Shown one piece after another: positions 170-55,700 of a stretch of 64,000 nt of DNA; positions within the stretch are counted from its first letter, which is position 1; each line of letters starts with the position of its first letter. The notes under the pieces are model-generated. The model was not told where the DNA came from and ran no database searches. It saw nothing but the letters and a program-made list of their open reading frames with translations. Both the position numbers and the translations under genes were made by a program. The DNA comes from Halichondria panicea. Lineage: Eukaryota; Porifera; Demospongiae; Suberitida; Halichondriidae. The DNA lies in the NCBI RefSeq assembly GCF_963675165.1, contig NC_087377.1:5580042-5644041 (forward strand). Direction: 5' to 3'.

Positions 170-32705
<32,536 letters not shown>

Positions 32706-49700: not shown

Positions 49701-52700
49701 ACAAGACTAGTACATCCCATATTTCTGTAGGCTACATGTACGTACGTACATGTATGTGTGAATAATTCCTAATGTTTTTTCTCTCCAGACTGCCTTGTCT
49801 TGGCCTGTACGGGTGATTTCCAGCATATTGTCAACTACATGCTCACTAGCTTGAACTGTGACCCTAACGTACGAAACGAAGACGGGGAAACCCCTCTCTC
49901 TCATGCCAAATCCAACAAAGTCATTCAGCTGTTGTTGAAATACGGTGCCGATGCTAAAGATGCGTACCAGCTGTATCGCCAGTCGCTCGGTAATCTGAGT
50001 GCCGAGGATCCACTTGTTAATCCGGTGAAGATGTTTGTGTTAGGGTTTGCAGAAGAGGGGAAAACCACGCTCATCCAATCGATGCAACAGGAACGAAAGC
50101 GAGACACTTTATTCAGCCTCGTCTCTTCAAAGGAGATCAAGGAACGTACTCCAGGCATTGTTTCGAAGGTGTTCAAAAGTCGGGTGTTTGGTGATGTGCA
50201 ATTCTTGGATTTTGCTGGGCAGAAGAGCTACTACAACAGTCATGCAGCGTTCATAAAATCTTCAATTGTGAGCTATCCGCCTTTGTTTTTGCTGGTTGTC
50301 GGTCTTCATCGAACCTGCAAACAAATCGAGTCCAACATTTCTTCGTGGATGATCATTTTGAAGAACCAATGTGCTCAGATAAAAGGAAAAGCTCCTCTGA
50401 TAGTCGTAGGCAGTCACGAAGACGTATTGAAAGAGCATCCCGAGGACAAATTGAAAAAGGAAAAATTGATCTTGCAATGCATTGAGTTGTATCAAAATTT
50501 CTTCAGTTCATTTGAATTTTTTTCCATGGATTGCCGAATTTGTAACACAGATCAAATCAAACAACTGAGGGAGATGGTCGGTGGGAAATGTAAGGAGCTT
50601 CGGTCCCAACTTTCTGTGAGTGTGAATGCACATATGTTTCTTCTCTTTCTTCTTGAAAAGTACCCAAAAGAATTCGCTGTTACTCTTGAAACTGCTCGCT
50701 CCCGAATAGAAACGGAGATACAGCTTGAAATATCGAAGAAACATGACAAGATTCTGCCTTTTCTTCCGACCAATGTTTCCCACATTGTCAAAATTTGTGA
50801 ACAGCTAAATGACAATGGCCACATCCTGTACTTACCGAATTCTTCGTCTGTTGGTCAAGGATATATTGTCATCGATAAGGCTGCTCTTCTCACAAAAATA
50901 ACTGGCACGATATTTGCACCTCCTGAGATGCGACAATACAGAGACATTGCGTCAAAGAGTGGTATCGTACCATTATCCAAATTGGTATCTTTGTTTCCCG
51001 ATTTTAACAGCAAAATGCTTCTTATGCTTGTTGGTTTTATGACAAGTCTTGAGCTTGCCATGATGATCGGTGATGAACCCATTTCTATCGACACCCTTGG
51101 TGACAGGCACCTCTTTTGCCCATCTCTAGTTTCTTCTGAGCCGTCAGAAACCGTTTGGGAGAAGGACGATAACTTCAAGTATCACTTTGGTTGGGTGCTC
51201 TCGTGTGTTGATAAAAATGGGGAGTTTTTCAGCAATCGGTTGATTCAAGTTTTGTTGCTCCGTCTTGCTCAATTGAACAAAGCTTCTGATGCCAGTCTTT
51301 TGTCGTCCGAACCATCTTACTCCATCTGGAAAATGGGGATCTGCTGGGGGTCAGGGAAAGGGGTTGTTACCATGGTCGAAATTGACGCTAACTGCAAAGC
51401 AATTTTGTTGAGAATGCGTGCCCATGACCTGACAGTAGACTTCCTTGAACTTCGATACGAAACTATTAGCAAAATTCTAAACACGGTCAAAGATGTATGC
51501 TCAAGTGTTAGCACTAAAGAAACGTTGGTCCGTTCAAATGACATTGTTAGTCACAGCACGTCTTTCACCAAGTTTACACGATATTCCTTCGATTCAGTTG
51601 CCAAGTCTATTGTCAAAAAAGATCCATGTGTTGCCTCTGGGCATAGCTCGACTAAAGTCACAGACCTGCTTCATGTGGAGGTGTACGAAAATCTAGGCGA
51701 AGCCATTTTGCAAGGATTTTTCAACAATGAATCAAGCAGGAAGCCCCTTTCTGATTGTTTTGTGAAGTCATTTTCCAGTGTACTTTCAAACCACCCTGAA
51801 CAAGCAGAGATTTTGTATCAAGCAATTGCTAATCTCCGAGAAAAGAATCGACCGCCTTCTTTAACACTTTACGAAGAACTGAAGGCTTGGAGTGAGAGTG
51901 GTGCTGGGACGTATCTAGCTCTGGGAGAGGTACTAGATCGATTGAGTGTGTTCAGGGGGAGGGACCCACTGGTGAGTGTGTGTCAGTCAGTAGGATGCAT
52001 GTGGATGATCTATAGCCGTGTACAATATAGTAATGTGTTTTGTGTATAATTATGTACAGTGTAAAATTTTATGTGACAACTAGTACATGTAATTGTATGA
52101 ATTATACTTATACTACTTTTTACAGAAAATAGCTGGTGTTGAGACCAAGCTCTTCTCTGAAGATGATCTACCCAACCCTGAAGAGATACTTCAAGGTACG
52201 CATCAAGAGTTTACTGACAATAAATGATTTAACGCTCCTCTTTTTCCTTCATTTACAGAACGTTCTTTTTCCTCGCTGGGAGCCCGTTCACTTCACAGAG
52301 GGTCCCTACCTGGTGATATGATTAGTCCGCAAACCTTCCAACGTACGGATTCAATCTCCTCTCATTATTCTGCCCACAGTGTAAGTGACGTTGTCCCATA
52401 ATCATTGTATCAAAATAAAAGCCGCCCGCCACGTACCTTAAATGTGTAGTTGTTCTTTTGCATAAGCATTCTACTTGTGACAAGTATTACTAATTTGTTC
52501 GTCCTGTACACTTCTGTCTATAATTCACAATGTACTTACCTTTCTCCCAAAGGCTTTTTCCTCAAGCTTTGACTCATTTGATCCCGAGCAGTCTTTTTCT
52601 CCCAGTGGGTGTGTTTCAAGTCCTCCAACGTCACTTGATAGACGGTTTATCTTTTCAAAAAGAAATTCTGGTTAGGAACATTGTTATTCATTGAACATGT

Positions 52701-55700
52701 ACATGTACTGTATTAGTATACTGCCAACGAGCTCTATCTTGAATGATTGTGCAACTTTACTTACAGATGGTCGTGTCCTCACAATTGAAAATTTACAACA
52801 GAGGAATGAAATCTCTGACTCTCTGTTACACTTGGAGATACATGAAAACAAGCTTCACTCTCTTGCCGGCTGCTTCGATAATGTGGAAGATTATCTGGAT
52901 GAACTTGAACTAACTGAAGGCCAGCAAACAGACGTTAAAGATATTGCCCACAAGAAAGGCACACAGATCGGGATGACAAAAGCTCTGAAATTGTGGCGAC
53001 GACTAAACCCAATGATCGCTACATATGAGAACTTACTGATTTTGCTGCTCAAACTCAAGAAAGGTGATGTGGCTTGCAAATGTTGTGATCTTATCCCAAA
53101 GCTTCTACCAGGATCTCCAGACGCCGGTAAATCTAACTCACGATCTCAGTCAATGGATGAAGGTATTGTACACATACATGTATACTTATACTCACAAAAT
53201 GTGCCTCCCGATATCTTGTATAATTATGTATAACATTGTATAATTTCATGATTACGATATTCTGAATTTATAGAGGCAACCTTACATGTACATGTAGCTC
53301 AGTAACAGAATGTTCAATTATTGAAAGCCCGCGGGTGCTGATGCCTCAGTGGAATGCTAGCAGCACGTGAAGCTAATACTTTTACTTTTACTCAGACTCT
53401 TGCTATTTAACAATTATTTGCATGCAGGGATGCAAGAGAGTGGGAAATAAAGACCCTGATAAGAATGTTACCAAAAGTTCAAAGTCTATATAATTTATGG
53501 CTGCTGCATCTCTGCGCACTTAAGGCCCGGGTCCAGATTTCAATACCAAAATTTACACTATGTTCATACTGCTGTATTATTAGCCTCGATTCCAGGCCGC
53601 TGAGAAAGGCGGCCTGGTATACACTGTTACGCATGCGCCAGAATTACCAAGAATCTTGGTAATCGTAAATTGTAGTATATTTATCAGTATTCTTATTCCG
53701 CATTTAGTTGTAAAACATTGATATCCGTTTCATTTATAATGATGTCATTGAAAAAAGAAATCTAGTCCAAGTTGTGTAATGGCTGCTACCTTCTCTTCTG
53801 CTCTCGCGTACGCGTTATCCTGTGTTGGAAAACCAGGTCTAGTCTTGAAAGACAAGCAGCTGGAGGCGTTGAAGTGTCTGTACGCTGGTGTTTATGTGGG
53901 TACCGTACCGACCGGCTATGGCAAGTCCCAGAGCAAGTCCATCTGCTTTCCAGACACTCCCTTTCTTGATTGATGTGAAGCTTGACACCTCTCTCTGAAA
54001 GAAGTGTTGTGATGAAAAAAGTGTTGTGATGGTGATTTCTCCTCTTGTTTCTCTGAGTGAAGCCATCTTCAAAGTGTTAGTGTGTCTGTTCGACGTTCAG
54101 TGCCATTCTCTCTGGAAGGAAGTATTGTTGTGACATTTGCCGAAAATTGGTCACAGAGTAAGTACGTGGTATCTGATCCGAGAACTGTGTGGCCTGAATG
54201 TGTTTACAATCCGAGGGACTTGTGTGCATCCGATCCGAGGGCTAGGGACTTGTTGCTTGAGTGTGTATTAATGGATAGTGCTTTCAATGGTAAATATATT
54301 GTGTAAATCAATAAGTAGTCCTCACATTATGTTACGTCACAGCCACTGTACTTATCCACATTTATTTTTTACCCACAGGTTTAACTAATTTCTTATGAGA
54401 TTAACTTGTCGCCTGAGTGTGTATCCGATCCGAGCCTCAAGTTAATGAATAAATCTACAGAGCTGATGTTTTACTTAGCTGTCTCTGTCTACAGTATATA
54501 CAGAGAGGTAGCCTCTCCTTTTCTTTTTTCTGTTCTTTATCACAATAAGATAAAATACTGTTTTAACGTTCAATGAGATAAAATACGGTAAATAATTGTC
54601 CACCCACGCGCCAACAGTAAATACCAGGCCCACTATTCAAGGGGCTGGAGTCGAGGCTACTGTATTATTTGCAATATACAGTGTATGCTGCATCAAATTG
54701 ATCCAAAATGAAGCTCAATGTTTTCTTTTTTCCAAAAAACTAATTATCAATATCTAGCGTTCTCGGATCCTAATAGCAAGTTATATCGACCAATTTTGCT
54801 ACACACGAGTCTAAAGAGACTGCTATGGCGCTCAAAGTAAGCAAAACTAGCCATACCCGAGAACAAAGCCTTATTTTGCAAGTCCACACATTGAAAACAT
54901 TGCTAGAAGAGCAGCTATAATACATGTAGCAGCTAGTCTACGCATTCATACACAAACACACTACCGTCTATTACCTCGCTGCGCATGCGCACATTGAGGC
55001 ATAATATAGAACATGTTGGTGCAAATCATTCAATAATTATAATTATACAGCCACTTTTTCTAAAACAAAATTGATATTAGCACGAATCAAAATGCCAACA
55101 CGGTTCATGACATTGTTCCTACACATGTATTAATTGTCCCTTGATTACAAATAATTATAATGTACATTTCACCTTATTTTACTACAGTTCTTAATTTATC
55201 TGAGGTACATGTATCATTGCAGCAGTGCATACTTTTTAACAACTTATTTCTTTCATACCTCAGGCTTGTCTACTGATCCTCGTAATCGTACCAGTCACCT
55301 TAAAGTAGTAAGGTCAGAACTGTGGGATGTCAGGGCCAAGTGGCGTGACCTGGGGATTGATCTGGGGATTCACGTAGACACTTGTGATGTGAGTATGTAC
55401 GTTTACAATAATTATGACTACTTTACAGTTATACCGTGGAACCTTCCTTAATAACCACCTCCGAAAAGCAACCACCCTCTCTAAAATGGCTAAGAACTCA
55501 GGTCCGAAGTTTTTCTAGTTCTCGATCAGCTTCATAACATTTGCCTTCCTGAACGGACAGCCATGCATGCACACCCAAAACATTGAGGCTGGGATAAGCA
55601 TTATTTTGCACCATTGAAAACCTGCACGTAGCTATAGCTATTCAAGGCTTATACTCATAGAGAGCAAACATGTTGGCAATTGAAACCTCTCAACTATAAG

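Follow-up and report, generated by a model that had tools for sequence, protein, structure and literature searches.

A short element in the genome of the sponge Halichondria panicea raises the question of why a DNA transposon with 9-bp target-site duplications should carry a piece of a RecQ-type helicase gene. The preliminary description of the 64,000-nucleotide stretch analysed here (the window) offered two explanations, namely a captured host RecQ gene or an autonomous transposon family with the helicase as an unusual replication partner. We addressed this question through the copies of the element in the genome, its longer relatives and the arrangement of the genes that these relatives encode.

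Boundaries, copies and target sites

The coordinates given in the preliminary description are exact, and the element of 1,079 bp enclosed by the two 9-bp repeats begins with TAGCCTCG and ends with CGAGGCTA. The terminal inverted repeats claimed for it are likewise present, although imperfect. The features of this element, and of a second such element elsewhere in the window, are as follows.

53572..53580, no strand: left target-site duplication CTGTATTAT, perfect 9 bp
53581..54659, plus strand: element of 1,079 bp, very probably a non-autonomous, AcademH-like deletion derivative
53581..53646, plus strand: left terminal inverted repeat, approximately 66 bp, imperfect
53592-53617: hairpin CCAGGCCGC...GCGGCCTGG inside the left terminal inverted repeat
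53779..53952, plus strand: helicase exon 1 remnant, 58 codons open, with motif 0 and motif I
53951..54055, plus strand: helicase exon 1 continued in a shifted frame (LPFLIDVKLD, a stop, then VMVISPLVSL, which is motif Ia)
54116..54600, no strand: middle stretch, no good match among L064-L071
54593..54659, minus strand: right terminal inverted repeat, with 83% identity to the right end of L068 over its last 59 bp
54660..54668, no strand: right target-site duplication CTGTATTAT, perfect 9 bp
6000..6576, no strand: second element, 577 bp, with a perfect 9-bp duplication AGTATAATT at 5991-5999 and 6577-6585

The nearest long relative of the window element is L068, to whose left 522 bp its positions 1-535 are 69.5% identical and to whose right 60 bp its positions 1021-1079 are 83% identical. 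The middle of the element (approximately 54116-54600) is without a good match in L064-L071, the eight loci used for comparison, where a single weak 36-base hit was seen (E 0.006). By eye, CCGATCCGAG-like words recur mid-element, at 54150-54440 of the window.

In the genome searched (131 Mb, 39 contigs), the element had at least 47 matches, a lower bound with 40 of 796 candidates scored; 40 of these matches, the element itself included, were long (at least 825 of 1,078 bases), and the other 39 long ones were 88-96% identical to it. The 18-base left end occurred 9,410 times (4,695 + 4,715) with up to two mismatches and not once in the reversed control, while the exact 8-base end occurred 14,013 times (6,951 + 7,062) compared with 949 times (443 + 506) in its reversed control. 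Since these counts far exceed the controls, the pairing of the window element's ends is not a matter of chance, and these ends are very abundant in the genome.

Using the element or the helicase part of it as query, we retrieved sixty loci, several of them spanning the same place. In 52 of these, a TAGCCTCG...CGAGGCTA pair is flanked by a duplication (perfect over 8 bp, or over 9-11 bp with no more than one mismatch); the other eight lack such an arrangement. After removal of duplicates from 71 loci and the window, 50 distinct elements, ranging in length from 50 to 6,353 bp, had perfect 9-bp duplications, in a set that admits these ends or ends with one mismatch. Exact 8-base ends at both sides are present in 46 of the 50, and a related end, TAGTCTCG, in two. 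Their duplications comprise 49 different 9-mers, among which no strong consensus was found; the elements in L039 and L040 have one duplication in common, and that of the element at L008 1488-3341, which encloses another element, may be due to chance. A perfect 10-bp duplication flanks one element, seen in both L017 and L060. A cross-locus control (38 of 9,252 equal) was not clean, with several loci spanning the same place, and is not relied on here. Flanks joined in silico matched uninterrupted related sites carrying a single 9-mer, most clearly for L032 against L044 and for L058 against its own flank; L032 showed small junction differences from the related site in L006, and the empty-site matches of L012 and L048 were poor at the junction. 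Five loci considered as longer copies (L023, L044, L053, L057 and L058) are longer by other sequence and not by more helicase, as judged from their blastn pieces and frames.

Many of the ends contain a hairpin (CCAGGCC...GGCCTGG) near the tip, a feature that is new here, and each end of the 577-bp element folds into a hairpin. In a comparison of 13 ends, picked because most of them show the hairpin, 85.5% of the cells pair. The paired-cell share and the covariation score of these ends exceed all 500 shuffles, and the covariation score also exceeds the slid controls. The number of pairs changed on both sides, however, was reached by 441 of the 500 shuffles and the number of further pair types by 408, and good variation is confined to a single column pair (19-38, with GC 7, CG 4, UA 1 and unpaired 1). 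Folding of 45 distinct ends gave a median z of -2.0. The hairpin is not general, because it is missing at the termini of the L064, L067 and L071 lines and at the TAGTCTCG ends.

The helicase remnant and the longer relatives with two facing genes

The wording of the preliminary description, a broken reading frame with three RecQ-type motifs, is apt: LKDKQLEAL (motif 0, 53845-53871) and VPTGYGKS (motif I, 53905-53928) have a common frame, and the frame is broken in that VMVISPLVSL (motif Ia, 54026-54055) sits in a different one behind a stop. The helicase likeness of the window element stops at about motif Ia. A profile search of the translated interior had been suggested as confirmation of the helicase, and here the outcome was divided. 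The 58-aa window fragment alone (P0001) matched nothing in Pfam or NCBIfam at E ≤ 1, and the longer, more open frame of L016 (116 aa) matched DEAD with an E of 3.1e-4, under the Pfam cut-off, and had no hit in NCBIfam; the longer relatives, on the other hand, match both recQ_fam and Pfam models. The window fragment is identified as helicase because it is 70% and 81% identical to L065 and L068, respectively, whose helicases score in profiles. Since the L016 frame runs through motif Ia and then departs from helicase, the window family probably lost the remainder of the helicase gene before spreading. The 58-codon stretch was compared in 33 distinct copies, drawn from 55 hits in L001-L060 and restricted to copies matching the entire stretch, and gave a pN/pS of 0.51 with zero stops. 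No complete helicase was seen in the window element's own subfamily among the 150 of 688 candidates scored.

At the protein level, the 58-aa fragment had at least 150 matches (150 of 287 candidates scored), and among the matches listed approximately 110 were at least 75% identical to it and about 40 more diverged. Among the long ones fetched were elements with the ends of the window element, a helicase, a probable transposase and 9-bp duplications. Five of the loci are as follows.

L065, 5,643 bp: perfect 9-bp duplication; all six gene stretches open
L066, 5,821 bp: perfect 9-bp duplication; breaks in both genes
L068, 6,353 bp: perfect 9-bp duplication; nested insert; second half of the helicase lost
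L070, 3,161 bp: perfect 9-bp duplication; shortened copy of the L065 type
L069: both helicase exons present; breaks in both genes

L065 and L066 (5.6-5.8 kb) combine the ends of the window element with two convergent genes and are presumably autonomous. For L067, L069 and L071, no 9-bp duplication was found. Imperfect terminal inverted repeats of 58-66 bp are shared by the window element, L065, L066, L068 and L070. In all seven loci (L065-L071), helicase sequence enters from the left and a gene with a zf-AD-like start and additional exons from the right, on the other strand. The nested insert of L068 (L068:3699-4966) matches DUF3504 and QRICH1, with Phage_integrase below its cut-off, a pattern that we take to be that of Crypton-like tyrosine-recombinase elements.

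Both helicase exons are open in L065 and present with breaks in L066 and L069. In L065, exon 1 ends with AHCVHKW and is followed by an apparent 58-bp intron and by exon 2, which encodes the C-terminal helicase domain and a RecQ zinc-binding module; the protein reads DEAHCVHKWSADFRP across the intron, which is similar to the aromatic-rich loop of RecQ helicases. The Pfam matches are DEAD (8.7e-13), Helicase_C (6.7e-12) and RecQ_Zn_bind (5.9e-6; 27.4 bits with a cut-off of 25). With recQ_fam (TIGR00614), exon 1 and exon 2 gave E values of 9.5e-28 and 1.4e-42, their single scores of 97.2 and 146.1 bits falling short of the cut-off of 219.8 set for a whole protein. Among solved structures, exon 2 is closest to WRN, bacterial RecQ, RECQ1 and BLM. 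The helicase core and zinc-binding module that mark the RecQ family are thus found in L065 and not in the window fragment alone. With 50 elements carrying 9-bp duplications and with the helicases of L065 and L066, the claim of a DNA transposon family that combines such duplications with a RecQ-type helicase is borne out. A search with PF00270 for long helicase genes also retrieved L061, which by eye is a RIG-I-like helicase and separate from the window element's family.

The right-hand gene of L065 comprises several exons, with a zf-AD-like start (21.1 bits, below the Pfam cut-off of 28) and with DUF6589 in two exons (1.9e-15 and 2.7e-31). We infer that the DUF6589 protein is a DDE transposase, with candidate acidic residues in the D of FVGDN (5/5 covering rows), the D of GGD/VGD (5/5) and the E of HNEH (4/4). 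Predicted folds of two putative transposase exons had mean pLDDT values of 33 and 36, and neither exon matched PHROGs. DUF6589 is named in no paper found in the literature searched; its probable role as a transposase domain is new here, and through it a Pfam domain of unknown function gains a probable identity.

Mutator-like elements are also known for 9-bp duplications, and a Mutator-like (MULE) family with the helicase as a passenger would account for these and for the inverted repeats. However, no MULE domain was among the Pfam hits of the six L065 frames (E ≤ 1), nor among those of the two L066 frames scanned (E ≤ 0.01). Membership fails in the scanned copy, which has DUF6589 instead, and the helicase, present here, is conserved across lineages. 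We consider this origin extremely unlikely.

The helicase as a resident gene

A genome search for DUF6589 gave 92 matches, which formed 63 clusters, some of them near-identical copies. In 33 of these clusters a RecQ helicase match lies on the opposite strand no more than 8 kb away, and all 33 pairs are convergent; in one cluster the only helicase match is on the same strand, and for the other 29 the matches used include none. Random placement of the helicase matches gave a mean of 0.5 and a maximum of 3 in 500 trials. The helicase matches used (n = 63) were picked by hand from those listed, excluding the short family and a further broken one, and the choice was not blind, some pairs having been seen already.

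Between L065 and six other loci, dN was 0.25-0.46 for the helicase exons and 0.33-0.54 for the t2-t4 exons of the DUF6589 gene, values restricted to codons aligned by tblastn and thus favouring conserved stretches. Synonymous sites are saturated in both genes (dS at least 2.1, mostly beyond the formula). At the level of sequence, these values speak for purifying selection on both the helicase and the DUF6589 gene. Because dN is this low with saturated synonymous sites, the helicase appears to be a resident gene and not a recent capture.

The captured host RecQ gene, the first of the two initial explanations, must be weighed against this. Pack-MULEs capture genes, and a host RecQ fragment recently taken up in that manner by an ordinary transposon would fit the broken state of the helicase in the window copy. 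Capture is nevertheless disfavoured, because the helicase occupies the same end in the same orientation in diverged long elements and shows signs of purifying selection; moreover, all 33 helicase/DUF6589 pairs are convergent, and several RecQ proteins, separated by modest margins, are its closest relatives of solved structure. We therefore assign it a very low probability. The second explanation, a family with a helicase partner, gains support from the 33 of 33 convergent pairs and from the selection on the helicase, and this selection makes a good case for the helicase being a selected component of the element.

Placement among known transposons and proposed working

Helitrons share the possession of a helicase, but theirs is of the Pif1 type and they are not known to have terminal inverted repeats or target duplications, whereas the family described here has a RecQ-type helicase, inverted repeats and a 9-bp duplication. 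Closer is AcademH, reportedly described by Kojima in 2020 as the helicase lineage of the Academ superfamily. AcademH elements encode a helicase and have 9 or 10 bp duplications, and a title cited in the same source places them in animals and fungi (PMC10045372). The sponge family has 9-bp duplications in 50 elements and a 10-bp duplication in one (L017/L060), a helicase in full-length copies (L065, and with breaks L066 and L069) and terminal inverted repeats of 58-66 bp in five elements. The match is one of description, covering duplication length, helicase and inverted repeats, and in these it revealed no difference other than that the window copy is a deletion derivative. AcademX, another lineage of the same superfamily, differs in having a nuclease and 3 or 4 bp duplications in place of the helicase and 9 bp seen here, and the duplication lengths of the two lineages have been linked to their helicase and nuclease (PMC10045372).

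KolobokH resembles the sponge family in combining a transposase with a RecQ helicase, and in Kolobok-1_CCri of a red alga the helicase lies on the complementary strand, as it does here (PMC9587614). However, Kolobok duplications are TTAA-specific and 4 bp long, and KolobokH is described from fungi only, with the helicase downstream of the transposase (PMC9587614); the sponge elements have convergent genes and 9-bp duplications of mixed sequence, and it is by their duplications that they fall outside Kolobok. A KolobokH or other helicase-bearing Kolobok origin is hence hardly probable. A new superfamily uniting DUF6589 and RecQ, with a likeness to AcademH limited to the helicase and the duplication length, is improbable to a slightly lesser degree: DUF6589 is unnamed in the literature searched and the likeness is descriptive, but both duplication length and helicase agree with AcademH, by title an animal and fungal lineage (PMC10045372). 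A literature search on RecQ, transposase and Amphimedon found no paper.

We therefore consider it very likely that the 1,079-bp element arose by deletion from an AcademH-type cut-and-paste transposon and is non-autonomous, while its long relatives carry convergent RecQ helicase and DUF6589 genes. The apparent conflict between helicase and 9-bp duplication is resolved because transposons that combine the two belong to a lineage already described, and the earlier idea of a new kind of family does not hold, AcademH having both (PMC10045372). While the AcademH kind is already known, a very abundant example with a huge copy number is new here.

Based on this placement, we propose a hypothetical multistep mechanism in which (i) full-length copies would supply the DUF6589 protein as transposase in trans; (ii) the transposase would bind the shared ends, perhaps via its zinc-binding start; (iii) it would cut the ends and join the element to staggered target cuts 9 bp apart; and (iv) the RecQ helicase might help to open or process the ends or the strand-transfer intermediate. 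The short element retains its two ends, a portion of helicase exon 1 and the unmatched middle stretch; it therefore encodes neither a complete helicase nor a complete transposase but could still be mobile. The most likely working is cut-and-paste in trans by the DUF6589 protein with the RecQ helicase assisting, in which catalysis, trans-mobilisation and the role of the helicase are all presumptive. We put forward more tentatively, as an unlikely but attractive extension, that the RecQ helicase and DUF6589 form a two-part transposition machine in which the helicase acts on the short end hairpin. If true, this would provide a function for DUF6589 and a reason why some cut-and-paste transposons retain a helicase.

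Further sequences were encountered alongside this family. A multicopy RecQ-like helicase frame of 356 aa (L072:362-1429; DEAD 4.2e-15) has relatives of 37-38% identity on several contigs, and neither TAGCCTCG nor CGAGGCTA was found around it in the 2.5 kb fetched. There is also a large family of broken helicase fragments (for example G000:C12:4327692-4328108) that are approximately 45% identical to the query, most of them with one TAG and one TAA, and that perhaps represent a second deletion derivative. In the window itself, a 758-aa open frame with a Roc domain (27.7 bits, with a cut-off of 27) and ankyrin-like repeats lies upstream of the element at 49773-52049, and an open frame at 46133-46681 matches the ELO (GNS1/SUR4) fatty-acid elongases. 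Long tandem repeats extend over 3616-5084, where three minus-strand frames are open, one of them rich in Thr and Pro.
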